DNA of 64,000 nt from Phreatobacter stygius (GCF_005144885.1 NZ_CP039690.1:3919001-3983000), one strand, 5' to 3'; counted from the stretch's first letter, positions 5,664 to 59,767 are shown. Program-made: numbers and translations. The notes: generated by a model from the sequence alone, not told the origin.

Positions 5664-6482
5664 ATGAAAGTCGCCAAGGTCGTGCTGGTCACCGGAGCGT
5701 CGTCGGGCATCGGCCGCGCCGCTGCGGCCATGCTCCATGACAGGGGCCATATCGTCTACGGCACCAGCCGGGATCCGGAGCGCCATCCGGCGGCGTGGCG
5801 GATGATCCGGCTTGACGTTGCCGACGATAGCTCGGTCGCGGCCGCCATGGCGACCATTCTTGCCGAACAGAGCCGGATCGATGCCGTCGTCAACAATGCC
5901 GGCCTGGTGCTGGCCGGCGCGGTCGAAGACACCACGCTCGCCGAGGCGCGCCAGCTGTTCGAGACCAATCTGTTCGGCGCTCTGCGGGTGACCAGGGCGG
6001 CCTTGCCGGCCATGCGGGCGCAGCGCGCCGGCGTCATCGTCAACATAGGCTCGCTCGCCGGCCGTGTCGGCCTGCCGTTCCAGGGGCTCTACAGCGCCAG
6101 CAAATTTGCGCTCGAAGGCCTGAGCGAGAGCCTGCGGCTGGAGGTTGCCGGCTTCGGTGTCCAGGTCACCCTGGTCGCGCCTGGCGATACCGCCACCAGC
6201 GTGGTCGACAATCGCCAGCGAACCGAAGCCTCCGGGCTGGAGGCCTCGGCCTATGCCGGCGTGTTTCCGCGCGTGCTGGCGACCTTCGAGGCGGAAGAAC
6301 GCGCCGGTTCGCCGGCTGTCGGGGTTGCGCGGCGGATCGCCGACATTGTCGAGGGCCGCGCCACCGCGCCGCGCTACGTGGTTGGCCCGCTGGCCCAGCG
6401 CATCCTGGTCGCGGGCAGGGCGTTCATTCCGGCCCGGCTGTTCCAATGGGGGCTCGGCATCTATTATCGGCTCCGGCCCTGA
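5664..6482 (+). CDS. Classical SDR oxidoreductase, candidate 3-ketosphinganine reductase
   Basis: A 272-residue short-chain dehydrogenase/reductase. The NAD(P) motif is VTGASSGIGRA (residues 9-19), NNAG follows near 80, and the catalytic Ser and YSASK lie near 130-150. The C-terminus (FIPARLFQWGLGIYYRL) is amphipathic to hydrophobic, as in membrane-associated lipid SDRs. It sits directly upstream of the serine palmitoyltransferase-like gene and on the same strand. Eukaryotic 3-ketodihydrosphingosine reductase (TSC10/KDSR) is also a classical SDR, so this is a reasonable candidate for that step. The family call is solid; the substrate is inferred from context, and the epimerase-like reductase at 53274 is a rival. 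Confidence 0.85.
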   Translation: MKVAKVVLVTGASSGIGRAAAAMLHDRGHIVYGTSRDPERHPAAWRMIRLDVADDSSVAAAMATILAEQSRIDAVVNNAGLVLAGAVEDTTLAEARQLFETNLFGALRVTRAALPAMRAQRAGVIVNIGSLAGRVGLPFQGLYSASKFALEGLSESLRLEVAGFGVQVTLVAPGDTATSVVDNRQRTEASGLEASAYAGVFPRVLATFEAEERAGSPAVGVARRIADIVEGRATAPRYVVGPLAQRILVAGRAFIPARLFQWGLGIYYRLRP

Positions 6483-6589
6483 GCGGCGAAAACCTCGGAA
6501 AAAGCCGTCGAACCGGCCAATTTCGAACGGCGACGAGGGCGGCGTCGATCACCCGGGGATTGGCCCGAAGCTTGCTCACTTCGCCTAAG

Positions 6590-6624
6590 GTGACTATAGC
6601 GTCACTGTCGTGACACACAGTCAC
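6590..6624. promoter_or_regulatory. Phased array of four GTGAC/GTCAC half-sites upstream of spt
   Basis: GTGAC at 6590-6594, GTCAC at 6601-6605, GTGAC at 6610-6614 and GTCAC at 6620-6624 alternate in orientation. Each adjacent pair is an inverted repeat, and the steps are 11, 9 and 10 bases, about one helical turn. The array ends 36 bases before the preferred ATG of the serine palmitoyltransferase gene. It looks like a cooperative operator for a dimeric regulator. Confidence 0.5.
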
Positions 6625-6660
6625 CGGTTTGTCGGTCGGTCGAAGGTAGCTTGCTCGCCC

Positions 6661-7914
6661 ATGTCGGATAGCCCTGTGCAGCAGAACACCCGGCCCGAAG
6701 CTGCGGCCGCTACCACGCAACTGTCCGGCATCCTCCGCCGCGTCGGCATGATCGGCGACATGATCGACCGCTCGGTCGGCAATGCCGATCATCCGCTCAG
6801 GATCCAGATCGAGCGGTTCGACGGTCCGGTCCAAGCGGTGATCGACGGCCGCCAGACCACGCTTTTCGGCACCAACAGCTATCTTGGCCTGAATTTCGAT
6901 CCGCGCTGCATCGCCGCCGCCGAACAGGCGTTGCGCCAGTGGGGCACCGGCTCGACCGCTTCACGTGTCGCCTCGGGCAATCAGGACGGCCACGTCGCGC
7001 TCGAACGAACCATCGCGAAATTTTACGATCGTCCTGATGCCATCGTGTTCTCGACCGGCTTCATGGCCAATATGGGCACCATTTGTGGCCTGGCGAGCGA
7101 TGGCGACCTGATTCTTTATGACAGCCATTGCCACGCCAGCATCATCGATGCCTGCCGGGCGAGCGGCGCCACCTTCAAGCCGTTCAAGCACAATGATCCG
7201 GTCGATCTCGACCGCCTGTTGAAGGAAGCGACGGTTCCGGCCTCGCGCATCCTGGTGGTGCTGGAGGGGCTCTATTCGGTCTGGGGCGATGTCGGCGACG
7301 TCAAGGGCCTGGCGACCGTCGCAAAAGACCATGGCGCGCTGGTCTTCGTCGACGAGGCTCATGGCCTCGGCCTTTACGGCGATAACGGCCGGGGTGTCAC
7401 CGAGGCGCAGGGTGCCGAACATCTGGTCGATGCCATCGTCGGCACCTTCTCCAAGAGTGTCGGGGTCATCGGCGGCTATTGCGTCACGATGCATCCGGCG
7501 CTCAAGTCGCTGCGTTTCCTCGCCCGGGCCTATCTTTATACCGCCTCCTTGCCGCCGGCGGTCGTCGCTTCGGCGCGCACCGCCATCGAGATCATCGCGT
7601 CCGAACCGGGCTTGCGTGCCGAGATGTGGCGCAAGGCCGAGCGGTTCTGCCTGGGTGTCGAGGCGCTCGGTTACAGTCTCTGTGCGGCGCCCGGCCCGGT
7701 CGGCTCGATCCGCATGCGAGGGCTGGTCCAGGGCATGGATTTCTGGCGCGACCTGCTGGCGCGCGGCATCTATGTCAACCTGCTGATCCCGCCGGCGACG
7801 CCGGCGGGCGAGGTGCTGCTGCGCTTTTCGGTTTCGGCCGCCCATACCGATGCGGATATCGACAAGTTCCTCGATATCATGCGTGAAATGGCACCGCGGG
7901 CGATCTCGGCCTGA
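6661..7914 (+). CDS. spt: Serine palmitoyltransferase-like alpha-oxoamine synthase
   Basis: A 417-residue PLP enzyme of the alpha-oxoamine synthase family (SPT, KBL, BioF, HemA, CqsA). Counting from the ATG at 6661, DEAHGLG contains the PLP-contacting Asp231 and His234, GTFSKS holds the Schiff-base Lys265, and SHCHAS holds the His158 that stacks on PLP. FKHNDPVDLDRLL resembles bacterial SPTs. SPT condenses serine with an acyl thioester to give 3-ketosphinganine in the cytosol. A longer GTG start at 6610 exists but would overlap the half-site array, and its extra residues look random. The neighbouring SDR, ACP, desaturase and ceramide-synthase-like genes support SPT over BioF or KBL. A CqsA-like signal synthase remains possible. 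Confidence 0.8.
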   Translation: MSDSPVQQNTRPEAAAATTQLSGILRRVGMIGDMIDRSVGNADHPLRIQIERFDGPVQAVIDGRQTTLFGTNSYLGLNFDPRCIAAAEQALRQWGTGSTASRVASGNQDGHVALERTIAKFYDRPDAIVFSTGFMANMGTICGLASDGDLILYDSHCHASIIDACRASGATFKPFKHNDPVDLDRLLKEATVPASRILVVLEGLYSVWGDVGDVKGLATVAKDHGALVFVDEAHGLGLYGDNGRGVTEAQGAEHLVDAIVGTFSKSVGVIGGYCVTMHPALKSLRFLARAYLYTASLPPAVVASARTAIEIIASEPGLRAEMWRKAERFCLGVEALGYSLCAAPGPVGSIRMRGLVQGMDFWRDLLARGIYVNLLIPPATPAGEVLLRFSVSAAHTDADIDKFLDIMREMAPRAISA

Positions 7915-7941
7915 GGCTGCTCTCTATGAGCAATTGGGCTG

Positions 7942-8097: not shown

Positions 8098-8148
8098 GTT
8101 TGCACCAAAATGAACCCGTCATAGTCACTGCGCGGCGGTACCAGGCCC

Positions 8149-9234
8149 TCAGGCCTTCCGCTCGCGGCGCAGCTCCTTGGCGCGCGCCTGGTGCGCCAGA
8201 AGCCTGGCCAGCACCTCGACCGCGCCCGTGCTCGAGGTCTGCTGATAGGCATTGTCGGCCGGCAGCGCCGTCACCATCCGGCGATGCGCCTCGCCGAGAT
8301 TGTGATAGGGCAGGCCGGGCAGGAAATGGTGCAGCCCGTGATAGCGCAGCCCGACGGGGGCCCACAGCATGGGCAGCATGGCCGGCGGCGGCACGTTGAC
8401 GGTGTCGAGCAATTGCTCGACCGCATCCATCTCCTCGCCTTCGTTCTCCCAATGGTGCGCCAGCAGCGTGCGGAACTGGTTGGTCAGGGCGATGCCGGCG
8501 GCGATCGCCAGCACGATGGCGACCGAAGTCCAGGAGATCGCGCCTGACAGCACCAGGGCGGCAACCCCCCAGGCATAAAGGCAGGTGACGGTTTCCAGCA
8601 CCAGCCAGCGCCGGGCGAGCGTCGGCGTCAGCGGCGGCCGGCGGAACTCCGGATTGATCACCAGCGCCGACAGGCGCTCCACCATCAGGCGCCGGAGCGG
8701 CGGAATGACCGCCGCGAGCGGCACCAGGATGAGCGAGCGGAGGATCAGCAGCAGCGGGAAGAACAGCGCGGCGAAAGTGAACAGAATGAGTTCGACCGGC
8801 CGGTTATGGCCGAGCGGCAGGTATTCCGGGTCGCGCACGGTGCCGTAATGGGTCTTGGCGTGATGCAGCGTGTGCACGCCCTCGTAGAAGAACGAGGGGG
8901 TCAGCAGGGGAATGCCGACCAGGATGTTCCAGCCGGTCCAGAAGCCGGGCAAGGTCGACAGCCGGACATGGGTCAGTTCGTGGATGAACAGGATCGCGCG
9001 GTAGAGTGCCAGCACGGCAATGATGCCGGCCGCGATGCGCAGCGGAACCGGTAGCGTCGGCGCCACCGCGGCCGCCAGCGCGCCGTAGCCGAGGCCGGAA
9101 CTGGCGATCAGGTCGACCCAGTAGAGCACCGGATTGGGCTGCATCAGATCGGCGGTCAGGCGGTGGGCGGCTTTCAGCAGGACGGCGCTGTCGCTTTTTT
9201 CATTCTGCCTGGCTTCCACGGGCTGCGGGCTCAT
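8149..9234 (-). CDS. Membrane fatty acid desaturase / hydroxylase
   Basis: A 361-residue integral membrane di-iron enzyme. Its histidine boxes are HELTH, HTLHHAKTHYG, HWENEGEE and GLHHFLPGLPYHNL. There are four or more hydrophobic segments, including one near residues 50-75 and a pair near 150-200. I chose the ATG at 9234 (MSPQPVEARQ); a start at 9357 is possible but adds an unlikely Arg-rich leader. It introduces a double bond or hydroxyl into a lipid acyl or sphingoid chain. It is convergent with spt and on the same strand as the ACP-ketosynthase operon upstream, from which about 200 bases separate it. Regiospecificity is not predictable. Confidence 0.85.
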   Translation of the reverse strand: MSPQPVEARQNEKSDSAVLLKAAHRLTADLMQPNPVLYWVDLIASSGLGYGALAAAVAPTLPVPLRIAAGIIAVLALYRAILFIHELTHVRLSTLPGFWTGWNILVGIPLLTPSFFYEGVHTLHHAKTHYGTVRDPEYLPLGHNRPVELILFTFAALFFPLLLILRSLILVPLAAVIPPLRRLMVERLSALVINPEFRRPPLTPTLARRWLVLETVTCLYAWGVAALVLSGAISWTSVAIVLAIAAGIALTNQFRTLLAHHWENEGEEMDAVEQLLDTVNVPPPAMLPMLWAPVGLRYHGLHHFLPGLPYHNLGEAHRRMVTALPADNAYQQTSSTGAVEVLARLLAHQARAKELRRERKA

Positions 9235-9434
9235 GACGGACAAATGGCGGACTCCGAAACAATGGCCCGGGCGGTCGGGAGAGGCGACCATGAGCCTTTG
9301 ACGATAGCGAAGGGCAGGCGACGCGACAACGACGGGAAAGGCGCAGACCTGCCGCAAATGCAGGCAGGTGCTGGCACGGCAGGCTGACCAGGATGGCGGC
9401 GGCGCTCCCGGCCTGCGGCTGGCCGAGGTCCCTT

Positions 9435-9842
9435 TTAGCCGGTCAGCACCGCTTCGGCCAGCGCCACCACCTTGTCGGCGCCGTCGCGGACGAAGATCCT
9501 GAGCGTGACACGCCGCCGGCCCTCGGGGCTGTCCAGGCGCACCACGCGGGCCGCCACCGTCACCGGCGAGCCGACGGCGACCGGCAGGGCAAAGCGGCTC
9601 GAAAGCTTGTCGCAGCGCGCCTGCGGCAGCCAGGCTGCCAAGGCGCTATCGACCAGCCCCATCAACAGCATGCCCTGGACGATCGGGCCGTCGAGGCCGA
9701 TCGCCTTGGCGGCGCCCGCATCGACATGGATCGGATTGGCGTCGCCCGAGGCCTCGGCGTAACACCGGACGGCCGCCGCGTCGATCGGCCCGAAACGATG
9801 CTCGGGCAATTGGCTGCCGACGGCAAGCGTCTCGGCGGTCAT
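9435..9842 (-). CDS. MaoC-like hotdog dehydratase
   Basis: A 135-residue single-hotdog protein with the hydratase motif YAEASGDANPIHVD, including the catalytic Asp and His of the (R)-specific enoyl hydratase/MaoC family. Its ATG overlaps the stop of the preceding hotdog gene (ATGA at 9839-9842), so the two are translationally coupled. Two small hotdog proteins encoded as a pair often form one heterodimeric 3-hydroxyacyl dehydratase, as in mycobacterial HadAB. With the upstream ketosynthase and ACP it would dehydrate a 3-hydroxyacyl-ACP intermediate. Confidence 0.82.
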   Translation of the reverse strand: MTAETLAVGSQLPEHRFGPIDAAAVRCYAEASGDANPIHVDAGAAKAIGLDGPIVQGMLLMGLVDSALAAWLPQARCDKLSSRFALPVAVGSPVTVAARVVRLDSPEGRRRVTLRIFVRDGADKVVALAEAVLTG

Positions 9843-10216
9843 TGAAACAGCCTGAGCACGCTGCGAAGCCTGACCAGCGCCTGGTTGCCGGCATCGGTGA
9901 CCGAGGCTTCGAGCGTCACATGGATCGCGTCGGTGCGCGTCGCGGTAACCTCGATCGACAGTGGCGTATCGATCGGCAGGGCCGCGAAAGTCTCGACCGT
10001 CTGAAGTTCATGCACCGGCAGGGCCATGGGCATGTCGGCGCTCAAGGCCTTGACCAGGGCGACGACCTCGGGCCGCGTCAGCCAGCGGATCGGATAGGTC
10101 GTCGGCAGCCGCGCGGCCGTCGGATCGGCGCCGATGCTCGCCGCGAAAGCCCTGACGTCGCCGGCCCCGGCCACCACGCCGAAACGCGCCGAGGCGTGCC
10201 GGCCGGCGAGGCTCAC
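9839..10216 (-). CDS. Second hotdog protein (MaoC/FAS1-type dehydratase partner), GTG start
   Basis: A 125-residue protein beginning V(M)SLAGRHASARFGVV. It starts at a GTG whose last bases overlap the ketosynthase stop (GTGA, 10213-10216) and ends by overlapping the MaoC start. TYPIRWLTRPEVVALV and the C-terminal strands VTATRTDAIHVTLEASVTD fit a hotdog fold. It lacks the clear D-x4-H motif of its downstream neighbour, so it is probably the non-catalytic or substrate-binding half of a heterodimer. Only an alternative start reveals this gene, so it is easily missed. Confidence 0.72.
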   Translation of the reverse strand: MSLAGRHASARFGVVAGAGDVRAFAASIGADPTAARLPTTYPIRWLTRPEVVALVKALSADMPMALPVHELQTVETFAALPIDTPLSIEVTATRTDAIHVTLEASVTDAGNQALVRLRSVLRLFQ

Positions 10217-11424
10217 GCGGCGCGCCCGATGACCAGCGCGGCATTGATGCCGCCGAAAGCGAAAGAATTGCTCATCGCCACCGACAGCGGCTGGCGGCGG
10301 CCGACATTGGGCACGCAGTCGATCGGGCAGTTCGGGTCGGCCGCGGCATGGTTGATCGTCGGCGGGATCCGGCCTTCTTCCAGCGCCCGCACGGTGATCA
10401 CCACCTCGACGGCTCCGGCCGCGCCGAGCGTATGGCCGTGCACCGGCTTGGTCGAGCTGACCGGCAGGTTGGCAATGTGATCGCCGAAGATGCGGTTCAG
10501 CGCTTCGCTCTCGGTCGTGTCGTTCAGCACCGTGCCGGTGCCGTGGGCGTTGACATAGCTGACTGCGCTTGGCGGCAGCCCGGCATCGTCGAGAGCGGCG
10601 GCCATGGCGTCGGAAGCGCCGTCCAGGTCTGGCCGGAGAATGTCCTTGGCGTCGCTGGTCGTGCCATAGCCGAGCAGGCGGGCCCGGATCCTGGCGCCGC
10701 GCGCCTTGGCGACCTCTTCGGCCTCGACGATCAGCACGGCGCCCGCCTCGCCCAGCAACAGGCCGTTGCGGCCCTTGGAGAACGGCCGGCAGAGATCCGG
10801 CGACAACACGCGCATTGCTTCCCAGACCTTCATGCCGCCGGGCGTGACGATGGCCTCGGTGCCGCCGACGATGACCCGGTCGGCGAGCCCTGAGCGCACC
10901 ATCATCATGGCCATGCCGAGCGCCTGCGACGACGAAGCGCAGGCGCTGGAAATGACGAAGGTCGTGCCGGTGCAGCCATAGGTCATGCCGATATGGGAGG
11001 CCGAGGCGCTCATCATCGAGCGCGGCACGGTCAACGGATCGGGCCGTTTGCCGGCGCCAAGATTGAGGATCGCATCCTCGATCGAGCCGGCGCTGCCGAT
11101 GCCGGTGCCGACGATCACCGAGGTGCGGTTGCCGAACGGCGGCGCGTCGGCAAGGCCGGCATCCTTCACGGCTTCCGCCGCGGCGATCAGCGCGAAAGCG
11201 GTGGCCCGATCGTAAAAGCCGGTTTTTCTGTCGGGGAACAGCTGCGGCAGATCGAGCTCCGGGATCTGGGCCGCGACCTTCACCGCATTGCCGACATCGC
11301 GCGACAGAATCAGCGGGCGCGCGCCGGAAACGCCCTCGGCGGCGGCATTCCACAAGGCCTCGACACCGAGCCCGGCGACCGAAATCGCGCCGATGCCGGT
11401 AATGACGGCTTGCCTGCCGGTCAC
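10213..11424 (-). CDS. Beta-ketoacyl-ACP synthase (FabF/KAS II-like)
   Basis: A 403-residue condensing enzyme with a complete catalytic set: Cys162 in SSACASSSQ, His294 in VNAHGTGT and His331 in KPVHGHTLGAAG. The usual length for FabF is about 410. It begins one base after the ACP stop, so ACP and ketosynthase are clearly one operon. A stand-alone ketosynthase with its own ACP and two dehydratases suggests a dedicated acyl chain-building or elongation module rather than housekeeping fatty acid synthesis. The reductase steps would have to come from elsewhere, for example FabG and FabI or the nearby SDR. Confidence 0.9.
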   Translation of the reverse strand: MTGRQAVITGIGAISVAGLGVEALWNAAAEGVSGARPLILSRDVGNAVKVAAQIPELDLPQLFPDRKTGFYDRATAFALIAAAEAVKDAGLADAPPFGNRTSVIVGTGIGSAGSIEDAILNLGAGKRPDPLTVPRSMMSASASHIGMTYGCTGTTFVISSACASSSQALGMAMMMVRSGLADRVIVGGTEAIVTPGGMKVWEAMRVLSPDLCRPFSKGRNGLLLGEAGAVLIVEAEEVAKARGARIRARLLGYGTTSDAKDILRPDLDGASDAMAAALDDAGLPPSAVSYVNAHGTGTVLNDTTESEALNRIFGDHIANLPVSSTKPVHGHTLGAAGAVEVVITVRALEEGRIPPTINHAAADPNCPIDCVPNVGRRQPLSVAMSNSFAFGGINAALVIGRAA

Positions 11425-11425
11425 G

Positions 11426-11704
11426 TCAGGCCTTCTTCTCGGCGAGGATGCGTTCCTTCAGGATCGTCAGCAGGCCGCCGACATCCTTCACCTGGGCCAG
11501 ACTCTCGTCCATCGGCACATAGACGGCGAATTTCTCTTCGACGGCGGCGAGGATCATCATGTAGTCGACACTGGCAATGTTGAGCGACTCGAGCGTCGTC
11601 TCCGGCCCGACGCCAGCGAGATCGACCATGCCCTCTTTCGCGATGACGTCAACGAGGTCCAGAGTGAGTTCATCATCTCCAAATCGGGTTGCAATGTCGC
11701 TCAT
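11426..11704 (-). CDS. Acyl carrier protein, atypical attachment motif
   Basis: A 92-residue acidic helical ACP, first gene of the ACP-ketosynthase-hotdog-hotdog operon. The phosphopantetheine site reads LNIASVDYMM, with Ser45 as the attachment residue; the canonical text is GxDSL. The Asp before and Leu after the Ser are thus replaced by Ala and Val, as seen in some specialised ACPs. In Caulobacter a dedicated ACP is needed for ceramide synthesis, and this may be the equivalent. It could load acyl chains for the SPT-like enzyme, the ketosynthase or both. Confidence 0.85.
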   Translation of the reverse strand: MSDIATRFGDDELTLDLVDVIAKEGMVDLAGVGPETTLESLNIASVDYMMILAAVEEKFAVYVPMDESLAQVKDVGGLLTILKERILAEKKA

Positions 11705-11911
11705 TCATTAGCCTTTTTTGGATTTTGGTAACTTCGGCGCAAGCTATGCGCTCGGCGTCCGGAAGCCAAGTGCCCAAGCCCCCCAAGGGCTCAACCTGTT
11801 GTTCCTATACGGTTCGCAGCGCCCTATCTACAGCGCGATTGCCTGTTGCACAGGATCGGCCGCAATGTCTATGCGATATTGCCCCACCTATCACGGATCC
11901 AGCTTGATATC

Positions 11912-12526
11912 ATGGTCACCCGGCGTTCCCTATTTCTGACTGCAGGCGCATTGGCATATGGGATGGCCAGCCGGCCGGGGCTCGCCCAGGGCCAGCGGCT
12001 GCCGCCGATCGTCGCGCGTGGCTCGGAGGTCACCGTCTCGCGGACGTTGATCGTGGCCAGGCCCGACCTGCCGGTGGCGACCGACCCGGGCCTTCTGTTC
12101 TACGTCCAGCACTCGATCAACAAGAGCCTGATCGTCTATGCCGCGCGGCTCCGGCCGGACGGCAAGCTGGACCCGAACCAGCCGGTGGAAGCGTTCTGGC
12201 GCCGTTTCGACGAGCAAGGCCAAAGGCGAGCGCTGAATTTCTTCGAACGGATCTTTGCTTTCGGGGTCAGCACGCGGGCTTTGCCGGATGGTCGCTACGG
12301 CGCGCGCATCGCCGGTTACCGGGCGCGTGAAGCGATCATCGATCTCGACGAAAGGGGCAAGCCGCGCGCCCTGCTGCCGGTCGGTTCGCGCATGGTCCGG
12401 GTTGTTTATGCCTATGCCTCGGCCGATGACGCCGGCTTCATCCCGAAGATCCATTACGTCGACGTGCACGGCTTCGATATCGCAACGGGCGAGGCGATTC
12501 GTGAAAGAATTCGTCTCGATATGTGA
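11912..12526 (+). CDS. DUF4833 family secreted protein
   Basis: A 204-residue protein with a Tat-like signal (MVTRRSLFLTAGALAYGM, cleavage after PGLAQ). The mature domain matches what I recall of DUF4833: FYVQHSINKSLIVYAARL, GKLDPNQPVEAFWRRFDEQG, and PKIHYVDVHGFDIATGEAI near the end. The ATG at 11912 fits the signal peptide; a longer frame from 11846 is unlikely. It lies between the ACP operon and the GT32 gene, facing the latter. The function of DUF4833 is unknown; in this locus a periplasmic lipid-related role is possible but only by association. Confidence 0.75.
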   Translation: MVTRRSLFLTAGALAYGMASRPGLAQGQRLPPIVARGSEVTVSRTLIVARPDLPVATDPGLLFYVQHSINKSLIVYAARLRPDGKLDPNQPVEAFWRRFDEQGQRRALNFFERIFAFGVSTRALPDGRYGARIAGYRAREAIIDLDERGKPRALLPVGSRMVRVVYAYASADDAGFIPKIHYVDVHGFDIATGEAIRERIRLDM

Positions 12527-12541
12527 TCGCCGGGCCGGGCT

Positions 12542-13303: not shown

Positions 13304-13316
13304 CGGCTGGTTCCGG

Positions 13317-15763: not shown

Positions 15764-15820
15764 TGATGATGAGTTGATCGTCGTGATGATGGCTTGCCGG
15801 CCAATGACACGATAGACAGC

Positions 15821-49723: not shown

Positions 49724-49800
49724 GGCCAGCGACGCGCTCTGAGAGCGACGTCGCCCCCGCCGTTGACACACACACCGCTCGAAAAAACGCAGGTGAATCA

Positions 49801-50706: not shown

Positions 50707-50745
50707 TGTTGTTCCCATTCCCCATTCAGCTCGATGTTCGCCCAA

Positions 50746-52018: not shown

Positions 52019-52112
52019 GCCGTTACCGTCCGATATGGCGGCGCATGGCCCCTCACGCGCGAGCCCGGCTCACTCCGGCCGCTTGCCAGCGAACCGGAAG
52101 CGCGCCTGGCGG

Positions 52113-53189
52113 TCAGGTCCCCGCGATGAACGAGACCGTCAGGTCCCGGGCTTCCGGGTCGGTGAACTGCTTGGGCGGCGATTTCATGAAATAGCTCGAC
52201 GGCCCGATGATCGGTCCGCCCATCTTGCGGTCGAGCGCGATCTTGGCGCAACGTACCGCATCGATGACGACCCCGGCGGAATTCGGCGAATCCCAGACCT
52301 CGAGCTTGACCTCGGCGTTCAGCGGCACGCCGCCGAAGCCGGTGCCTTCGAGCCGGATATAGGCGATCTTCCGGTCATCCAGGAACGGCACGAAATCGCT
52401 CGGCCCGATATGGATGCGGTCGGCCGCCAGCGGCACGTCGATCTGGCTGTTGACCGCCTGCGTCTTGGAAATCTTCTTCGACTTCAACCGGTCGCGTTCC
52501 AGCATGTTGAGGAAATCGGTATTGCCGCCGAAATTCAGCTGGTAGGTGCGCTCGATCTTGACGCCGCGATCCTCGTAGAGCCTGGCCAGCACGCGATGCA
52601 GGATGGTCGCGCCGACCTGGCTCTTGATGTCGTCGCCGACGATCGGCAGGCCCTTGTCGGTGAAACGCTTGCTCCAGACCGGGTCGGAGGCGATGAACAC
52701 CGGCACGCAATTGATCAGGCCGCAGCCGGCGGCAAGCGCCTGCTCGGCATAATATTCGCTGGCCTTCTGCGATCCGACCGGCAGGTAGGAAATGATCACC
52801 TCGGCGCCGGCCGCCTTCAGCGCGGCGGCCACGTCCACCGGCGGCTGCGACGACTCGTGCACGATTTCGAGCAGATGCATGCCGACGCCGTCGAGCGTCG
52901 GTCCGCGCTGCACGATGACGCCGGTCTCCGGCACGCGGGCGAATTTGAAGGTGTTGTTCGGTTCTGCCGCGATGGCGTCGCTGAGGTCCTGCCCGACCTT
53001 GCGCGCGTCGATGTCGAAGGCCGCCACGACCTCGATGTCGCGGATGTGGTAGGGGCCCACTTCGACGTTCATCAATCCCGGGATCGACTCACCGAGCTTG
53101 GCGTCCTTGTAAAAGTTGAGCCCTTGAACGAAGGATGAAGCGCAATTGCCGACGCCAACGATGGCAACTCGAATGACGGGTCGTGACAC
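52113..53189 (-). CDS. ino1: Inositol-3-phosphate synthase (MIPS)
   Basis: A 358-residue cytosolic NAD-dependent enzyme that converts glucose-6-phosphate to L-myo-inositol-3-phosphate. [17 protein letters not shown] is the NAD motif, [13 protein letters not shown] and [20 protein letters not shown] are MIPS signatures, and the length is that of the short actinobacterial type. I chose the GTG at 53189: GGAGA precedes it at six bases, and upstream frame text is not homologous. It is divergent from the epimerase-like gene. In bacteria MIPS supplies PI lipids, mycothiol-like compounds or compatible solutes; the AUR1-like gene nearby favours lipids. Confidence 0.93.
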
Positions 53190-53273
53190 GAAAAATCTCC
53201 AGGCGCTCTGGCCGAAAACCACCGACCGCGCGGCCTCCTTATACTTCATTGTCCTGTCATTAAAAGAGTTAGC

Positions 53274-54242
53274 GTGCTGATCGTCACTGGAGCTACCGGC
53301 CTTCTGGGCAACACTTTGGTGCGTCGGGCGCTCGGCCGTGGCCTCCAGGCCACAGCCCTGCTGCGTGACAAGAGTGCGACAAGGCCGCTCGACGGGCTGG
53401 CGGTGCGCATAATTCGCGCCGACCTGGCCGGCGATGCGCTGGAACCGCTGGTGGCCGGCGCGCGCTGTGTCATCCACGCCGGCGCGCGCGTCGCCATCGG
53501 CCGGCGGGATCTGGAGGCTTTTCGTGTGGACAATGTCGTGCCGACGGCGCGTCTTGCCGCCGCTTGCCGGGCCGCGGGCGTCCGTCTGGTTTTCGTTTCA
53601 ACCGTCGACACGCTGGCCTGGGGCAGCCGGGCCGCGCCTGGCGATGAGACCCGCTCCAGCGGCCGCGAGCCGGCCACCGCCTATTCGATCTCCAAGCGCG
53701 AGGCGGAGGACGCAGTACTGGCGGAGGTTGCGCTGGGGCTCGACGCGGTGATCGTCCATCCGGGTTTTCTCCTCGGCCCCTGGGACTGGAAACCCTCCTC
53801 GGGACGCCTGATCCTGGAGGTTGCCCGCGCGCCATTCGCGCTGGCGCCGCCTGGCGGCAATGATTTCTGTCACGCCGCCGATGTCGCCGACGGTGTGCTC
53901 GCCGCGGCCGAACGCGCCGTGTCCGGCAGCCGCTATGTCCTTAGCGGCGAAGCCTTGAGTTATGCCGAGGCCTTTCGGCTGATCCGCCGGGCCGCCGGGC
54001 GGACGCCGCGGATCGCGACAGCACCGGCCTGGCTCGTGGCGGCCGCCGGCCGGGCCGGCGATCTCATCGGGGCGGTCAGCGGCCGCGAGCCGGCGCTGAA
54101 TTCGGCCAGTGCGGCGATCGTCGCCTTGCCGCATCATTTGTCGAGCGCGCTGGCCGCCCGCGATCTCGGTTATCGGCCGCGCCCGGCCGAGATCGCCATG
54201 CGCGACGCCTGGACCTGGTTCACCGGACACGGATACGCATGA
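53274..54242 (+). CDS. NAD-dependent epimerase/dehydratase-like reductase, CerR or HpnA type
   Basis: A 322-residue extended SDR starting at GTG 53274. [18 protein letters not shown] binds the nucleotide, and [10 protein letters not shown] holds the catalytic Tyr-Lys. The C-terminal lobe resembles dihydroflavonol-reductase-like proteins. In Caulobacter the ceramide pathway reductase CerR is also an epimerase-family protein, so this is a candidate for reduction of 3-ketosphinganine; a nucleotide-sugar role for the neighbouring glycosyltransferase is the alternative. It overlaps the GT4 gene by four bases. Confidence 0.8.
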
Positions 54243-55408
54243 GCGGGCAGGTGACATCGACGATCCCGCCGGACCACCGGCGAGCCATGAAGATCGCGCT
54301 CGTCGGCGACTGGTTCCTGCCGCGCCTCGGCGGCATCGAACTGCAGACGCGCGACCTGGCGCTGGAACTGATGGCCGAAGGCCACCTGGTCGAGGTGATC
54401 ACCGGCGTTCCCGGACCCGACGCGGTCGACGGCATCAAGGTCATCCGCTTGCCGGGGCCACGCCTGATCGGCGCCGGCATCGCGGTGACGCCGGGCGTGT
54501 TCAAGGCCCTGCACGGGTCGATCCGGGCCGGCGGCTATGACGTGATCCACGCCCATTTCGGCATCATCACGCCGATTGCCCACGACGCCCTGCGTTTCGC
54601 GGCGGCACACCGCATTCCGGCGGTCGCGACCTTCCATTCGGTGCTGCGCTATTACGACCTGCCCTTGAAGCTGCTCGACCGGACGCTCGGCTATTCAGGC
54701 TGGCCGGTCCGCTATGTCGGCGTCTCCTCGGTCACTGCCGAGGCCATGCGCCCGCTGGTCGGAGACCATGACATCGCGGTCATTCCGAACGGTATCGATC
54801 TGGCCTGGTGGCGCCGGCCGGCCGGTGCCATCAGGCCGGATCGTGCGGCGACCCGGCCGGTCGCCTTCGTCACCGTCATGCGCCTGGAAAAGCGCAAGCG
54901 CGCCCGTGCGCTGATCGCTGCCTTCGCCGATGCCATGACCGGCTTGGCCGCGGGCGCCGCCGAACTGACCGTGATCGGCGACGGCGGCGAGCGGCCGGCC
55001 CTGGAACGTATCGTCGAGCGCCGCGGATTGTCGGGCCAGATCCGCTTTCTGGGGAGCCGCGGGCGACCCGAAATCCGCGACATCCTGCACCGTTCCGACG
55101 TGTTCGCGCTGGCGTCGCGGCTGGAAGCCTTCGGCATCGCGGCGCTGGAGGCGCGCGCCGCCGGCCTGCCGGTGGTTACGCTGAAGGCCTCCGGCGCGCG
55201 CGATTTTCTAAGACATGACGGGGATTCGCTGCTGGCCGGCGACGATGCCGAACTGAGCCGCCAGATCAGGAGCCTGATCGTCGATCCGGCCCTGCGCGGA
55301 CGCCTGGCGCAAGGCGCCGAGGCAAGCCCAGAGGGTGTCGACTGGACCAGCGTCGGGCCGCGTTATCTCGCCGAATATCGCGCGGCGATCCGGGATGCGG
55401 CCGTCTGA
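54239..55408 (+). CDS. GT4 family glycosyltransferase
   Basis: A 389-residue GT-B enzyme. The N-terminal domain has GDWFLPRLGGIELQTRDLA, then YDVIHAHFGIITPIAHDAL. The donor-binding domain has VTVMRLEKRKRARALIAAF and the motif EAFGIAALEARAAGLPVV, with the Glu pair of the EX7E signature. The first 16 residues may be extra, as a second ATG at 54287 matches the usual family start. GT4 includes MshA and PIG-A, which transfer GlcNAc to inositol-containing acceptors. Its link to Ino1 and a deacetylase makes that kind of reaction plausible here. Confidence 0.85.
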   Translation: MSGQVTSTIPPDHRRAMKIALVGDWFLPRLGGIELQTRDLALELMAEGHLVEVITGVPGPDAVDGIKVIRLPGPRLIGAGIAVTPGVFKALHGSIRAGGYDVIHAHFGIITPIAHDALRFAAAHRIPAVATFHSVLRYYDLPLKLLDRTLGYSGWPVRYVGVSSVTAEAMRPLVGDHDIAVIPNGIDLAWWRRPAGAIRPDRAATRPVAFVTVMRLEKRKRARALIAAFADAMTGLAAGAAELTVIGDGGERPALERIVERRGLSGQIRFLGSRGRPEIRDILHRSDVFALASRLEAFGIAALEARAAGLPVVTLKASGARDFLRHDGDSLLAGDDAELSRQIRSLIVDPALRGRLAQGAEASPEGVDWTSVGPRYLAEYRAAIRDAAV

Positions 55409-55427
55409 CCGGGCGGCCGGACCCGGT

Positions 55428-56420
55428 TCACGAGGTTCTGGCCGCTGAATCGCCGCGCGGCAGCGTCAGCGCGAGATAGCCGATGCCGACAAAGGACGAG
55501 GCGAAGAAAACGGCGTGCTGCAGCACCGCCGCCGCCACCGCCAGCGGCAGGGGAACGCCGAGATATTGATAGCAGAAGATGACCGCGGCCTCGTAGACCC
55601 CGAGATTGCCGGGTGAAACCGGCGCCAGCGTCGCAAGCCCGAGTGCGGCGACCACCAGGACTGCGGCCGAGAATGACGGTTCGATGCCGACCGCGACCTG
55701 AACCGCAACCACCGCCGCGATTTCCACAGCTTTTTTGGCGATCGCCAGCAGCATCACGGCAAGGCCGAGCAGCGGCTGCCTGAGCGGCTCCAGGTGATCG
55801 AGGAAATCCGCGGCGAGCTTGGCGATCTTTGCCGCTTTCGGGCCGAATGTCCGGCTGACGGTCCGCACCAGATTGCCGCTGCGGGCGGCAACCAGCATGA
55901 CCAGCACGAAGGCGGCGATGACGCCGGCAAGCGTCAGCATGGCCGTCCGCATCCAGTCCGGCAGCGGCAGCAGCGTCGCGGCCAGCGCCAGGGTGCCGAC
56001 CTTGACGATGCCGGTCAGCAACTGATCGACCGCATAAAGCGACATGGCGGCGCTGGCCGGCAGGCCGCCACGCACCATCAGGAAGCCGACGGCGGCGACC
56101 ACGCCGGCGATCGGCACCGAATTATTGGCCGTGCCGGTCAAGGCGGTGACCTGCGCCATGCGCGGCAGGCTCGGCCGGTGGGCGGCGGGTGCCAGCAACC
56201 ACCATTCGACGATCCACAGCGGCCAGCCGGCGACGACGATCACGAAGCTGATCAGGGCCCATTCCCAGCGCGCGCCCTTAAGTGCGGCGATCACGTCGGT
56301 CCAGGGCAGCGTCATGGCGGCGACGACAAGGAAGCCCGCCAGCACCAGCCAGCCGACGATCCACCAGAAGCGCGGCGAGGCGAGGGGATTGCGCCGCTGC
56401 GGCGTGTCCGAACTGGTCAC
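55428..56420 (-). CDS. UPF0104 (lysyl-PG synthase membrane domain-like) protein
   Basis: A 330-residue integral membrane protein with about eight segments. LAPVSPGNLGVYEAAVIFCY near residue 265 is the family signature, with GVPLPLAVAAAVLQHAVFF following. These flippase-like domains occur alone or fused to MprF and are thought to move lipids or lipid-linked sugars across the inner membrane. It is the last gene of a three-gene minus-strand group with a deacetylase (four-base overlap) and a glycosyltransferase. Confidence 0.85.
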   Translation of the reverse strand: MTSSDTPQRRNPLASPRFWWIVGWLVLAGFLVVAAMTLPWTDVIAALKGARWEWALISFVIVVAGWPLWIVEWWLLAPAAHRPSLPRMAQVTALTGTANNSVPIAGVVAAVGFLMVRGGLPASAAMSLYAVDQLLTGIVKVGTLALAATLLPLPDWMRTAMLTLAGVIAAFVLVMLVAARSGNLVRTVSRTFGPKAAKIAKLAADFLDHLEPLRQPLLGLAVMLLAIAKKAVEIAAVVAVQVAVGIEPSFSAAVLVVAALGLATLAPVSPGNLGVYEAAVIFCYQYLGVPLPLAVAAAVLQHAVFFASSFVGIGYLALTLPRGDSAARTS

Positions 56421-57214
56421 CGCCTGGCGTCCGTCATCGCGCCCGCCTTGGCGGCCGTATTGCCGGCTGCGGCCTGATCTGCGGTCGCCCCGGCGACGCC
56501 GAGGTCGCGCATGGTGGTGAATTCGGCGCCGCGCGCCTTGAAGAAGCCGATCACCGAACCGAGCGCATCGAGCGCCGGCTGGCCGGTGCGGAAGCGGCAG
56601 TCGTAGCGCAGCGTCGTCCGGGTGAAATCGACGAACTCCCAGGGGTGGACGAAAAGCACCACCGGATCGGCCAGCCGGCCGAGGAAGAATTCGCGGATGA
56701 TTTTCGGGATGCGCAGCGCGCTGGAGGTGATCGAGGCCGGCACGCGCACCAGGTTGCGGGCATTTTCGACGCCGGGCACGTCGCGTTTGTACTTGGCCTG
56801 CGAGGAATCGAGGGCGAAGCCTTCGGCCTCCAGCAGATCGAGATAATGGCCGGGAAAGCGCAGATAGGGCGCGCGGAACGAGGTGACCGGAGCAAACTCG
56901 CGCAGGCGCCGGGTCGATTCGACGATCTCGTGGGCGGCGCTCTCGCGCGACATCCAGTCGAAGCGCTGGTGGCTGATGCCGTGGCAGCCGAGCTCATGGC
57001 CGGCCTTGACGATCGCCTCGACCGATTGCGGATGAAGCCTTGCCGTATCGCCCGTGGTGAACCAGGTCACCGGGATCGCCTGCCGCTCGAACAGGTCGAG
57101 CAGCCGCGGCGCGCCCTCGGTCACGCCCCGCCAGGTCCACAGGAAGGGCGGGCAATCGGGTTCCATGTCGACCGTCAGGGCGACGCGAAGGGGTTTGGTG
57201 GTGGTTGTCGACAT
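56417..57214 (-). CDS. Polysaccharide deacetylase (NodB family)
   Basis: A 265-residue carbohydrate esterase 4 enzyme. VALTVDMEPDCPP carries the metal Asp and catalytic base, HGISHQRFDWMS the His pair, and FRAPYLRFPGHYLD the FRxPY motif. VLFVHPWEFVDF lies in the C-terminal part. It would remove an N-acetyl group from a sugar. The ATG at 57214 matches family length. Beside a GT4, Ino1 and a lipid flippase-like protein, deacetylation of a GlcNAc-inositol lipid is possible. The cellular target is unknown. Confidence 0.85.
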   Translation of the reverse strand: MSTTTTKPLRVALTVDMEPDCPPFLWTWRGVTEGAPRLLDLFERQAIPVTWFTTGDTARLHPQSVEAIVKAGHELGCHGISHQRFDWMSRESAAHEIVESTRRLREFAPVTSFRAPYLRFPGHYLDLLEAEGFALDSSQAKYKRDVPGVENARNLVRVPASITSSALRIPKIIREFFLGRLADPVVLFVHPWEFVDFTRTTLRYDCRFRTGQPALDALGSVIGFFKARGAEFTTMRDLGVAGATADQAAAGNTAAKAGAMTDARR

Positions 57215-57272
57215 CGGCTGGGCTCTTAGCACGGCCCGGGCGAAGCGGCCACCACGGCCATGCCGAGGAGTT

Positions 57273-58106
57273 TCACCACCATTTGGCGAAGATCTCGATG
57301 GCCGTGCGGTCATTGCCGCCGGACTTGTTCGGGCCGTCGGTGAGCGCCGCCAGGCTCGAGGCCCGGGTCTCGATCGGCAGGCCCTTGGCCGGGATCACCA
57401 GGCGCGCAATGCCGCGTTTGGCGAGGTGGCCGGAAAACCAGACATCATCGACGAAACGGACCGCGGGCGGATGGCCGTCAAAGGCATGGACACTCGCGTC
57501 GAAGGCGCCTGGAGGCACCAGGTAACCCCAGGTGCCGAGCAGGATGTCGACCGGGGTCGGCGCCGCGACGCCGGTCGCGAAAATATGGGGAAAGCGCTTG
57601 GCATGGACGCCGTCGACGATGCGCCAGCCGCGCCAGCCGATGGCGGCCTTCGGATGCGCCCGGTGGCCGGCGAGCAATTGCTCGAGAAAATCGACGGGAT
57701 AGATGACGTCGTCGTCGACCACCACCACCGCCGCCCCGGGCTCGGCGACGAGCGCCGGCAGGAGTTTGGTCGCCGGGCCCTCGTCGGTCGAGGCGAGCAC
57801 CTCGACGCCGTCGGGCAGCGGGCCGGGGTCGGGATAGGCGAGACCCGAGCGGCGCGACACGGCCGGGCGCCAGACGATGATGCGATCGGCCGGTACGGTC
57901 TGGTCGATCAGGCTGCGCAACACCGGCTGGAGCCGGTCCATGCGCTCCGGAACGGTGGTCAGCGACACCACCAGGCGCTCCGGCCGCGGCGCCGGCGGGC
58001 GCCGGCCGGGCTCGCTCAGCATCAGCCGGCGCGCCCGCGCGATGTCGCGCACCAGCCTGAGCGGCGACATCCGGCGGAACCGCATGAACGTGTTGGCGAG
58101 CGTCAT
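57273..58106 (-). CDS. GT-A fold glycosyltransferase
   Basis: A 277-residue enzyme with the GT-A opening LVVSLTTVPERMDRLQPVL and the metal site VVVVDDDVIYPVDFLEQLL, whose DDD is the DXD-type motif. WGYLVPPGAFDASV and FVDDVWFSGHLAKRGI form the acceptor region. It resembles glycosyltransferase-like proteins of capsule and surface glycolipid clusters. It is first in the minus-strand group with the deacetylase and the UPF0104 protein, and divergent from the CDP-alcohol phosphatidyltransferase. Donor and acceptor are not known. Confidence 0.75.
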   Translation of the reverse strand: MTLANTFMRFRRMSPLRLVRDIARARRLMLSEPGRRPPAPRPERLVVSLTTVPERMDRLQPVLRSLIDQTVPADRIIVWRPAVSRRSGLAYPDPGPLPDGVEVLASTDEGPATKLLPALVAEPGAAVVVVDDDVIYPVDFLEQLLAGHRAHPKAAIGWRGWRIVDGVHAKRFPHIFATGVAAPTPVDILLGTWGYLVPPGAFDASVHAFDGHPPAVRFVDDVWFSGHLAKRGIARLVIPAKGLPIETRASSLAALTDGPNKSGGNDRTAIEIFAKWW

Positions 58107-58217
58107 GGTCTTGCCGCTCGTCTGCTATTCCGGTCGTCGCGCATCTTCACCTGGGCTGATTTTTCGGGCAGGGAGACGCTAGATAGCACCTGGTCGACGG
58201 AACGGGGAGGCAAGTTC

Positions 58218-58874
58218 ATGATGCGCAATTGGGCCGCGCGCCTGCTCGGCAGTCTCGAGCAGGGCGTTTCCGTCCAGGATATCGGCCGCAGCGCGTCGTT
58301 CACCGCGGGCCTCAGCCGGATCGCCAGCCGGCTGGCGCGCACCGGCGTGACGCCGAATACGCTGACGCTGATGTCGCTGCTGCCCGCGGTTGCCTCCGGC
58401 ATCGCGGCCGCCAATGGCCTGCTCGGCTGGGCCGGCGTGCTGCTGCTGGTCAGCGGCGCCTTCGACCTGCTCGACGGGCCGCTGGCGCGGTTGACGGGTA
58501 CCGCCACGCGGTTCGGCGCCCTGCTCGATTCGACCGTCGACCGGGTCTCCGACGCGGCCCCGCTTCTTGGCCTGACCATTCTCTATTCGAACAGCGGCTG
58601 GCTGGCCGTGCTGCCGGCGCTGGCGCTGCTCGCCGCCTATACCGTGTCTTACGTCCGGGCGCGCTGCGAGGGTCTCAAGGTTGCCTTGCCGCCGCTGTGG
58701 ATGCGCCGCGGCGATCGCATGATCCTGCTGGTGCTGTCGTTGTTTCTGGGCAGCCTGGTACCCTGGCTGGCGCTCGGTGGCGTCGCGCTGATCGCGCTCT
58801 TGAGCGCGCTCGCCGCCGCCGATGCGCTGCGGGTGGCGCGCCATGTCATCGATGCCGGCGGCGGTCGCGCCTGA
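58218..58874 (+). CDS. CDP-alcohol phosphatidyltransferase, candidate PIP synthase
   Basis: A 218-residue membrane enzyme with a perfect CDP-alcohol motif: DLLDGPLAR, eight residues, GALLDSTVD, that is, the D-x2-D-G-x2-A-R-x8-G-x3-D-x3-D site for Mg and CDP-diacylglycerol. About six membrane segments follow. GGGGAGG lies 7 bases before the ATG at 58218. Bacterial phosphatidylinositol-phosphate synthases belong here and use inositol-3-phosphate, the Ino1 product. Its stop overlaps the AUR1-like start (TGATG). PgsA or choline-type activities remain possible. Confidence 0.85.
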   Translation: MMRNWAARLLGSLEQGVSVQDIGRSASFTAGLSRIASRLARTGVTPNTLTLMSLLPAVASGIAAANGLLGWAGVLLLVSGAFDLLDGPLARLTGTATRFGALLDSTVDRVSDAAPLLGLTILYSNSGWLAVLPALALLAAYTVSYVRARCEGLKVALPPLWMRRGDRMILLVLSLFLGSLVPWLALGGVALIALLSALAAADALRVARHVIDAGGGRA

Positions 58875-59767
58875 TGGTCACTGCCTGGCGGCATATCTAC
58901 GGCCTGTGGGGCCGGTTCTGGTTCGTGCCGCTGATCCCGGCGCTGCACGCGGCCTTCATGGCTTCGATCGGAGCGCTCCGGCCCGAGCACGTGCTGGCGG
59001 CGCTGGCCTTTGCCGGCCTGGGATTTGCGGTCGAGAAGACCAAACTTCTGGTCGCCGCCGCCTTTCCGGCGCTGCTGGTGGCGCTCGCTTATGACCTGAT
59101 GCGCTTCGTCACGCCGGTCTTCGTGCGCCCCGGCCGGGTCTGGGGCTGCGAGATGCGGGCGCTGGAACTGAAACTGTTCGGCGTCGGCCCCGACACCACG
59201 CTGCCGGACTTCTTCAACGTCCACCACGCGCCGTTCTTCGACGTGCTGTTCGCGCTGCCTTATGCCTTGTTCATCTATATCGCGGCGCTCTATTCGATCT
59301 TTCTGTTCGTCAAAGACCGCGAGCGGATGCACCACTATCTCTGGGCCTTCGCGATTGCCCATGTCATCGGCTTTGCCATCTGGATGGCCATTCCGGCGGC
59401 GCCGCCCTGGTATATTCGTGCCCATGGCTGCGTGATCGATCCCACGGCCGCACCGAGTGCCGCGGCCCTGCTGCGCGTCGACCAGTTGCTGGGCATCCAC
59501 TATTTCGAGGGGTTTTACAGCCGCAATCCGAATTCTTTCGGCGCCATGCCGTCATTGCATTGCGTCTTCCCGGCGCTCGGCCTCCTGACCGCCTGGCGCT
59601 CGGCGACCTGGCTCACCCGGCCGATCCACGTGATCTATCTGGTGCTGATGGTGATCGCGAGCGTCTATCTCGACCATCATTGGCTGATCGACGGGACCGT
59701 CGGGATCATCGTGGCGATCGTGGCCGTGTTCATCGCGGCGCGCTTGCGCGGCAGGCGCTGGCCGTGA
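58874..59767 (+). CDS. AUR1-like PAP2 enzyme, candidate inositol phosphorylceramide synthase
   Basis: A 297-residue membrane protein of the AUR1 branch of the PAP2 superfamily. The triad is His229 in NSFGAMPSLHC, and His269 and Asp273 in LDHHWLID; this His-x3-Asp spacing matches what I recall of fungal Aur1 (SHHYFVD). PAAPPWY at 174-180 and FFDVLFALPY near 121-130 match the other Aur1 motifs. Aur1 moves phosphoinositol from PI to ceramide. Five or more membrane segments and the start overlap with the phosphatidyltransferase support a linked lipid pathway. Distinction from other AUR1/PAP2 enzymes needs activity data. Confidence 0.85.
   Translation: MVTAWRHIYGLWGRFWFVPLIPALHAAFMASIGALRPEHVLAALAFAGLGFAVEKTKLLVAAAFPALLVALAYDLMRFVTPVFVRPGRVWGCEMRALELKLFGVGPDTTLPDFFNVHHAPFFDVLFALPYALFIYIAALYSIFLFVKDRERMHHYLWAFAIAHVIGFAIWMAIPAAPPWYIRAHGCVIDPTAAPSAAALLRVDQLLGIHYFEGFYSRNPNSFGAMPSLHCVFPALGLLTAWRSATWLTRPIHVIYLVLMVIASVYLDHHWLIDGTVGIIVAIVAVFIAARLRGRRWP

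Follow-up and report, generated by a model that had tools for sequence, protein, structure and literature searches.

The region analyzed is a window of 64,000 nucleotides (the whole stretch, NZ_CP039690.1:3919001-3983000) from the single-contig, 7.35 Mb genome of Phreatobacter stygius, and contains two groups of genes, 34 kb apart, predicted to direct the synthesis of an inositol sphingolipid. An earlier note on this DNA had proposed that both groups belonged to one set, with co-occurrence across genomes as a check, and both points were borne out in the genus (12 Phreatobacter genomes, that of the window and 11 others, with the cluster region compared in all 11): in every one of the other genomes the two loci were joined in a single cluster of approximately 19-23 kb, as far as the compared stretches reach. 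The cluster could be followed to the gene of an AUR1-like enzyme in 10 of the 11, and in the remaining one (G199) to that of a phosphatidylinositol phosphate (PIP) synthase (PIPS), where the 20 kb stretch ended. Gene order was the same in nine of nine genomes: KdsR-like reductase, serine palmitoyltransferase (SPT), MaoC hydratase, beta-ketoacyl-ACP synthase (KS), acyl carrier protein (ACP), DUF4833 protein, GT32, LptG2, LptF2, bacterial ceramide synthase (bCerS) and PgpA, followed by LptB, inositol-3-phosphate synthase (MIPS), epimerase-like protein, GT4, flippase-like protein, CE4, GT2, PIPS and AUR1. In G202, whose stretch ends inside SPT, this order extended from that gene as far as AUR1; in G199 it ran from KdsR up to PIPS, and the KS and GT4 matches were each split in two pieces. 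Unassigned stretches of 2.5-3.7 kb occurred within the cluster in G160, G200 and G203.

DNA from the nearest relative (G201) was collinear with window positions 8126-17507 and 51125-58856. On the G201 side these blocks were only 23 bases apart; therefore, the 33.6 kb between them (17508-51124, outside the pathway), which split the cluster between PgpA and LptB, were inserted in the window genome. The insertion holds a two-component pair and genes for a porin, a multicopper oxidase, copper efflux, purine catabolism, an RND system and an autotransporter. The identity of the AUR1-like protein to that of the window was 91% in G201 and 51-59% in the other eight of nine aligned genus relatives, and since gene order was kept despite the latter values, the linkage has outlasted much divergence and is not due to chance. 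That the two loci are mere chance neighbors was thus ruled out by the single-cluster order and the mapped insertion. All named genes correspond to open reading frames (ORFs) with family-model support, except for the GNAT protein, identified by a homolog instead.

The last gene of the cluster (58874-59767, plus strand) encodes a 297-aa protein predicted to be an inositol phosphorylceramide (IPC) synthase of the AUR1 type (NF052609, E = 2e-38, 132 bits, cut-off 480). Its Pfam match was PF14378 (PAP2_3), while PF14360 (PAP2_C), the family guessed at first, had no match in the window genome. Searches with its sequence profile retrieved AUR1 chains 9vj3 and 9ivc (E = 8e-20 and 1e-19), the next match having an E-value of 0.22. 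The predicted structure (predicted local distance difference test, pLDDT, 94.9) gave in Foldseek the IPC synthases 9vj4 and 9ivc as best matches (E = 4e-10 and 5e-9, TM 0.64-0.71), followed by LpxE (E = 1e-2), so that yeast IPC synthase provided the only strong structural matches. The complete triad reported earlier was confirmed: H229, H269 and D273 were invariant in 27 of 27 diverse relatives, and their motifs aligned with FGAFPSLH and HHYFVD of AUR1 in the HMMER alignment.

Three further genes of the cluster are related to inositol headgroup supply. MIPS (52113-53249, minus strand) matched TIGR03450 (E = 4e-164, 546 bits, cut-off 638), and its top solved structure was the inositol-3-phosphate synthase 1gr0 (493 bits, residues 25-377), presumably Ino1 from Mycobacterium tuberculosis. 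The CDP-alcohol phosphatidyltransferase of PIP synthase type (58218-58874, plus strand) carries the full D-x2-DG-x2-AR-x8-G-x3-D-x3-D motif, which had this single match in the six frames of the window; family models and motif thus uphold the earlier identification of both enzymes. For the latter, matches were obtained with the models for archaetidylinositol phosphate synthase (NF040950, E = 8.5e-37), PIPS (NF045883, 1e-27) and BT1523 (NF052561, 1.6e-24), below the cut-off in each case, as well as with the solved CDP-diacylglycerol (CDP-DAG)-inositol transferase 6h53 (E = 4e-16). The PgpA-family protein (17011-17517, plus strand), a candidate PIP phosphatase, also belongs to the family previously assigned (PF04608, E = 1e-36, 126 bits, cut-off 28). 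Since each of the 10 genus genomes covered had a single PgpA, at the cluster position, and PgpA occurred in only one of five control alphaproteobacteria, it is likely to be a dedicated PIP phosphatase. By family, MIPS, PIPS, PgpA and AUR1 correspond to BT_1526, BT_1523, BT_1525 and BT_1522 of Bacteroides thetaiotaomicron, respectively, whose deletions are reported to abolish inositol lipids or phosphoinositol dihydroceramide (PI-DHC) (PMC9246714).

Genes for the sphingoid backbone are located mostly in the first locus, where the ORFs listed previously (SPT-like enzyme, two reductase candidates, ACP, desaturase and GNAT protein, one of the reductases lying in the second locus) all found family or homolog support. 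SPT (6661-7914, plus strand) scored 458 bits against NF047599 (E = 2e-137, cut-off 500) vs. 320 bits against the bioF model, was 41% identical over 364 aa to the SPT of Escherichia coli B, and contains a GTFSK motif at position 261. In the SPT tree, which has long branches for BioF and Kbl, one group (support 100/99) comprised the window protein, nine Phreatobacter SPTs, seven alphaproteobacterial SPTs and the E. coli B enzyme, separate from BioF, Kbl and Bacteroidota sequences; model scores and tree together excluded BioF or Kbl as the identity of the window protein. The group is that of rhodobacterial SPTs, to which the E. coli B enzyme, known to be functional, also belongs.

Either of two proteins may reduce the ketone, as judged from their families. 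The KdsR-like SDR (5664-6482, plus strand), a candidate 3-ketosphinganine reductase, had the 3-ketodihydrosphingosine reductase model NF049977 as the top among 221 NCBIfam matches (E = 3e-79, 266 bits, cut-off 400), and adjoined SPT in 10 of the 11 other genus genomes (G202 being the truncated one). The NAD-dependent epimerase/reductase (53274-54242, plus strand; PF01370), similar to HpnA and CerR (HpnA TIGR03466, E = 7e-55, 186 bits, cut-off 368), was 30% identical over 213 aa to Epi of E. coli B. The Caulobacter reductase of the ceramide pathway is reported to be periplasmic (PMC11087976).

The predicted bCerS (15821-17014, plus strand), a GNAT N-acyltransferase without Pfam or NCBIfam match, was 35% identical to YghO (Aca) of E. 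coli B in an alignment spanning 377 of its 397 aa, i.e., a full-length relation. YghO and Caulobacter CC_1154 are described as aca genes, needed for dihydroceramide (PMC9386255). All 12 genus genomes had a bCerS gene. A profile built from an alignment of 15 rows, in which 20 columns were invariant, matched 51 of the 385 class genomes; this number includes P. stygius itself and a weak match in G386 (105 bits). A distant paralog (25% identity to both window bCerS and YghO) lies in the window genome far from the cluster (C1:193756-194901), and no further sphingolipid gene match was found in its 19 kb surroundings. Second loci with bCerS-like and KdsR-like genes were also observed in G201 (C75) and G132 (C25), the former with an SPT-like gene as well (31-35% range), whose protein groups with those of three uncultured Rhizobiales (loci L051-L053, see below), apart from true SPT.

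A fatty-acid desaturase/hydroxylase family protein (8149-9291, minus strand; PF00487, E = 1e-23) was encoded, among genus loci, by those of P. stygius and G201 alone, and relatives with 47-49% identity occur beside bCerS in two of 10 conventional alphaproteobacterial ceramide loci (G215 and G525; stretches of 19-20 kb each), which suggests a swappable backbone-modifying gene.

Acyl supply appears to differ from that of the conventional loci. The cluster encodes a dedicated ACP (11426-11704, minus strand; PF00550, E = 0.002, 18.7 bits, just below the cut-off of 20.8) with Ser45 in an ASV motif, conserved in all 11 other genus loci, and a FabF-type KS (10213-11424, minus strand; PF00109/PF02801; TIGR03150, 382 bits, cut-off 494) with the motifs ACAS (Cys162), NAHGT (His294) and HGHTLG (His331), whose residues we take to be catalytic. 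A HadB-like MaoC hydratase (9435-9842, minus strand; PF01575, E = 1.5e-19) had HadA/HadB-type dehydratases as its top named models. Rhodobacterial SPT is stated to co-occur with AcpR and the acyl-CoA (in fact acyl-ACP) synthetase AasR (PMC9386255). With E. coli B AasR as query, none of the 10 genus genomes searched yielded an ortholog (best match 102 bits, 70 bits in P. stygius), while orthologs scored 465-540 bits in 10 of 10 control alphaproteobacteria, chosen from 50 other bCerS-positive genomes; the matches of up to 102 bits were read as members of the general acyl-AMP ligase family. Phreatobacter thus breaks the rule stated in PMC9386255 that rhodobacterial SPT always occurs with such a synthetase, a rule of co-occurrence and no enzyme trait. 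The 10 conventional stretches contained SPT in eight cases and AasR in seven, with no KS, MaoC, MIPS or AUR1 match; weak partial PIPS matches appeared in two of them (G240 and G295) and a KdsR-like SDR in two (G361 and G525). From these patterns we infer that acyl-ACP is made by elongation instead of activation of free fatty acids.

Four genes could act on sugars. A GT32-type glycosyltransferase with a DXD motif (12542-13303, minus strand; PF04488, E = 6e-11) matched the Och1 mannosyltransferase 9n3s (E = 1.6e-8 over 52 aa). The GT4 glycosyltransferase (54239-55408, plus strand; PF00534/PF13439) had BshA as best match in the Protein Data Bank (5d00, E = 3e-16), followed by the phosphatidylinositol mannoside (PIM) mannosyltransferase 3oka (E = 6e-12). 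Together with a CE4 polysaccharide deacetylase-family protein (56417-57313, minus strand; PF01522, E = 1e-18), these were the sugar genes already recognized, and the Pfam matches confirm their families. A GT2-like protein (57273-58106, minus strand) was matched weakly and below cut-off by PF00535 (E = 2e-4), and showed 69-87% identity in the 11 other genus loci. Transfer of N-acetylglucosamine followed by deacetylation would be a reasonable sugar route.

Genes related to lipid export are found in both loci. A flippase-like membrane protein of the LPG_synthase_TM family (55428-56420, minus strand; PF03706, E = 1e-28; TIGR00374 above cut-off) is encoded in the second, and two permeases above the cut-off for PF03739 in the first: LptG-like LptG2 (13317-14507, minus strand; TIGR04408, E = 7e-29, 101 bits vs. 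240) and LptF-like LptF2 (14504-15763, minus strand; TIGR04407, E = 3.5e-26, 92 bits vs. 230). With the LptB-type ATPase LptB2 (51302-52018, minus strand; TIGR04406, 318 bits, above the cut-off of 240), of which a 47% identical relative lies next to LptF/LptG-like genes in a Rhodobacteraceae metagenome-assembled genome (MAG; locus L057), they would make a complete LptB2FG set. LptC2, LptF2 and LptG2 have been proposed for sphingolipid transport in Caulobacter (PMC11324152).

Among 199 genomes of the order, the AUR1-type model NF052609 had nine matches (seven genus genomes and two weak ones of 19 and 25 bits, which were dropped), and neither the window protein nor any of the nine reached its cut-off. 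An AUR1 profile, scored on at most five candidates per genome, so that a miss is possible, matched six of the 385 class genomes at 1e-10, strongly only that of the window (412 bits); the five others (42-50 bits, partial profile coverage) were dropped as other PAP2 proteins. A scan of contigs gave 562 confirmed AUR1 loci, of which 80 were listed, 77 from outside the genus. Using window proteins as queries and flanking DNA within limits, often short, PIPS was detected in 66 of these 77, PgpA in 28, bCerS in 12, and SPT-like proteins and MIPS in 10 each; these counts are lower bounds, and that for SPT-like proteins takes in L051-L053, whose enzyme may be no true SPT. AUR1, PIPS, MIPS, bCerS and KS occurred together in four other alphaproteobacterial loci among those listed, one each from three uncultured Rhizobiales (L051, L052 and L053) and the Rhodobacteraceae MAG; all four include KS, and L052 and L057 MaoC as well. 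Hence, the full alphaproteobacterial set that the earlier note considered new is indeed present, although it is not unique to this region. In-frame stops were met in the CE4 gene of L051 and the PgpA gene of L053.

In the AUR1 tree (rooted at midpoint, with L057 as a long branch), Phreatobacter formed a clade with three Rhizobiales/Hyphomicrobiales MAGs and the Rhodobacteraceae MAG (97/93). This clade was nested within one that also contained seven myxobacterial sequences (100/98), and that one in turn within a larger clade with ten more deltaproteobacterial or myxobacterial rows (100/99). Horizontal transfer between myxobacteria and alphaproteobacteria is therefore likely, most simply into the latter. 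AUR1 was also located near PIPS in six Myxococcus/Corallococcus loci (L091, L075, L079, L094, L095 and L096). Their genes are candidates for synthesis of the ceramide phosphoinositol reported from Myxococcus xanthus (cited in PMC9246714).

DUF4833 seems to recur in clusters for inositol lipids. The protein of the window (11846-12526, plus strand; PF16117, E = 2e-26), with an N-terminal helix that may be a signal or anchor, was present in 11 of 11 other genus clusters, and near AUR1 in 15 of the 77 listed non-genus loci, within 400 bp in 12 of them. Its model gave no fold match. In the class DUF4833 was rare (two of 385 genomes above cut-off), and the second genome, G225, without AUR1 or bCerS match, has it amid inositol-lipid-like genes. 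This speaks against a strict link between DUF4833 and AUR1, though the locus (C2:487000-506999) holds an SPT-like gene (best model BioF), MIPS (50%) and a PIPS-type CDP-alcohol phosphatidyltransferase, along with an SDR, CTP_transf_1, LptF/LptG-like genes, GT4 and an FGGY kinase. The CdsA-like gene close to PIPS leaves room to speculate about a route via CDP-ceramide at this locus.

Taking homology and synteny together, the cluster very probably makes IPC, and both loci would derive from one ancestral cluster for making, decorating and exporting it. The FabF-type KS and HadB-like dehydratase, with housekeeping reductases, would elongate an acyl chain on the dedicated ACP; SPT would join the acyl thioester to serine, the KdsR-like SDR or the epimerase-like protein would reduce the ketone, and bCerS would attach the second acyl chain. 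MIPS would provide inositol-3-phosphate, which the CDP-alcohol transferase would convert to PIP; PgpA would strip the phosphate, giving phosphatidylinositol (PI), and the AUR1-like enzyme would transfer phosphoinositol from PI onto ceramide. The GT4, GT32 and GT2-like enzymes with the CE4 deacetylase may then attach (deacetylated) sugars. Transport of the lipid to the outer membrane may fall to LptB, LptF and LptG together with the flippase-like protein. Judging from the gene families, export by the Lpt-type system is rather probable, and glycosylation of IPC is favored slightly less. KS, the MaoC/HadB-like protein, DUF4833, LptF/LptG-like proteins, LptB and the flippase-like and GT2-like proteins extend the gene list originally noted.

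Among other explanations, an unlikely one is that the cluster yields two separate products, ceramide lipids as well as PI or its PIM-like glycosides; the AUR1-like protein would then be a lipid phosphatase or use a different headgroup. This reading fits with PIPS and MIPS having as best solved matches a bacterial CDP-DAG-inositol transferase and Ino1, with the resemblance of GT4 to BshA and the PIM mannosyltransferase, and with the many listed myxobacterial AUR1-PIPS loci without SPT or bCerS match in the flank; moreover, PAP2-fold proteins are often phosphatases. However, in both sequence and fold the AUR1-like protein is far closer to IPC synthase than to any PAP2 phosphatase, and SPT-like or bCerS genes do accompany AUR1 in some of the loci outside the genus (10 and 12 of 77). 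It is very improbable that the headgroup of the sphingolipid is something else than inositol phosphate, as for example in the ceramide phosphoglycerate known from Caulobacter, with MIPS used elsewhere. Other phosphosphingolipids of Caulobacter and their genes are named in PMC11324152, and the family cut-offs were not reached, but all 11 other genus genomes have MIPS and the inositol-type CDP-alcohol transferase within the conserved cluster. Modification of lipopolysaccharide (LPS), in which ACP, KS and dehydratase would build very long acyl chains for lipid A, as dedicated ACP/KS sets do in rhizobia, and the LptB/F/G families and glycosyltransferases of the cluster would be LPS-related, is hardly credible: LpxC was found in 11 of 12 genus genomes (the twelfth being 85% complete) and a separate, higher-scoring LptF/LptG pair also in 11 of 12 (the twelfth 89% complete), so that the pair of the cluster is an extra one, three of three control genomes without LpxC match had LptF/LptG only as a pair beside sphingolipid genes, and we know of no LPS role for SPT, bCerS or AUR1. 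AcpXL is mentioned in PMC9386255.

Several observations weigh against the synthesis of IPC as favored here. The Phreatobacter lipid is a prediction from genes. Family assignments agreed in the model searches suggested earlier, yet SPT, KdsR, PIPS, MIPS and AUR1 all stayed below their NCBIfam equivalog cut-offs, and bCerS had no model; even so, the anticipated objection that key proteins belong to unrelated families failed for SPT (tree), AUR1 (profile, fold and tree) and the GNAT protein (identity to YghO). Conventional alphaproteobacteria differ, with an Epi-type reductase in eight of 10 loci and AasR in 10 of 10 genomes. In the related loci L051-L053 the enzyme in the SPT position groups apart from SPT, scoring best as BioF in L051 and L052, and L057 shows no SPT match in the flank covered, with the window protein as query. 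Finally, PgpA, being the sole copy, could serve as a general phosphatidylglycerophosphate phosphatase.

The cluster combines two known pathways. Its inositol branch resembles BT_1522-BT_1526 of B. thetaiotaomicron, comprising an AUR1-type PI-DHC synthase, a PIP synthase, a PgpA-type phosphatase and MIPS, and the nearby BT_1521, annotated as lysylphosphatidylglycerol synthase, parallels the flippase-like gene (PMC9246714). Bacteroidota AUR1 relatives were approximately 27-34% identical to the window protein, BT_1522 itself lying outside the comparison. Unlike in Phreatobacter, the SPT of B. thetaiotaomicron (BT_0870) is encoded away from the inositol cluster, and the available passages of the same paper name GtrA and no LptBFG, KS/MaoC or GT4/CE4 set (PMC9246714). 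The backbone branch shares SPT, ACP, bCerS and a second LptF/LptG with the spt-acpR-epi-aasR-aca genes and LptC2F2G2 of Caulobacter and rhodobacteria (PMC9386255, PMC11324152), but differs in the AasR that was not found, in KS plus MaoC, in the KdsR-type reductase and in the inositol headgroup genes. The nearest listed AUR1 proteins outside alphaproteobacteria (49-55% identity) belong to myxobacterial loci L043 and L046-L050, each with a PIPS match but with no SPT, bCerS or MIPS match to window proteins in the flanks. In fungi and plants, inositol sphingolipids have a central place, and the fungal glycosyl inositol phosphorylceramide (GIPC) pathway includes Aur1 and GT32 mannosyltransferases of Sur1/Csh1 type. 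The cluster is similar to that fungal and plant pathway in its IPC synthase, by sequence and fold, and in a GT32 related to Och1, whereas it is of bacterial type in its ceramide synthase, its export and the way PI is supplied, through PIP.

A 2020 survey still described sphingolipids within Alphaproteobacteria as confined to Sphingomonadales (PMC7179689). Chemical reports of inositol-type sphingolipids concern M. xanthus and Bacteroidetes, with a tentative one for an alphaproteobacterium, Novosphingobium acidiphilum, to whose inositol-like lipid no genes are assigned in the passages of PMC9246714 available; the gene-level work found concerns Bacteroidetes (PMC9246714). In a literature search that included few subscription papers, no alphaproteobacterial inositol-sphingolipid genes were found, N. 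acidiphilum being the one chemical hint, and no paper on DUF4833. The new features of the cluster are the absence of a detectable AasR, the KS/HadB supply, LptB2FG and DUF4833, for which it provides a genomic context. With backbone, headgroup, sugar and export genes in one cluster, synthesis, order and transport become testable in a single organism that retains its LPS genes. A more detailed reading is offered tentatively, its parts jointly falling somewhat short of an even chance: Phreatobacter and a few uncultured alphaproteobacteria would make a true glycosyl-IPC with a probable glucosamine (GT4 and CE4) and, in the case of Phreatobacter, a sugar from GT32, on acyl chains built de novo by KS/HadB on a private ACP without AasR supply; a second LptB2FG would export it beside LPS, the inositol branch would come from myxobacteria, and DUF4833 would perform an unrecognized step of inositol-sphingolipid handling in several phyla.

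Some ORFs were discarded when genes were delimited. Those at 9839-11353 (minus strand), 9393-9845 (plus strand) and 58103-58579 (minus strand), with no Pfam match, were judged spurious or overlong, and the 5' parts of ORFs 57054-58874 and 58229-59767 (both plus strand) were dropped, the starts of PIPS and AUR1 lying downstream. Beyond the cluster, positions 60018-63799 encode an HtrA/DegP-like protease and a beta-lactamase-like serine hydrolase; the protease gene follows AUR1 immediately in eight of nine genus loci, and lies 11 kb off in G201.

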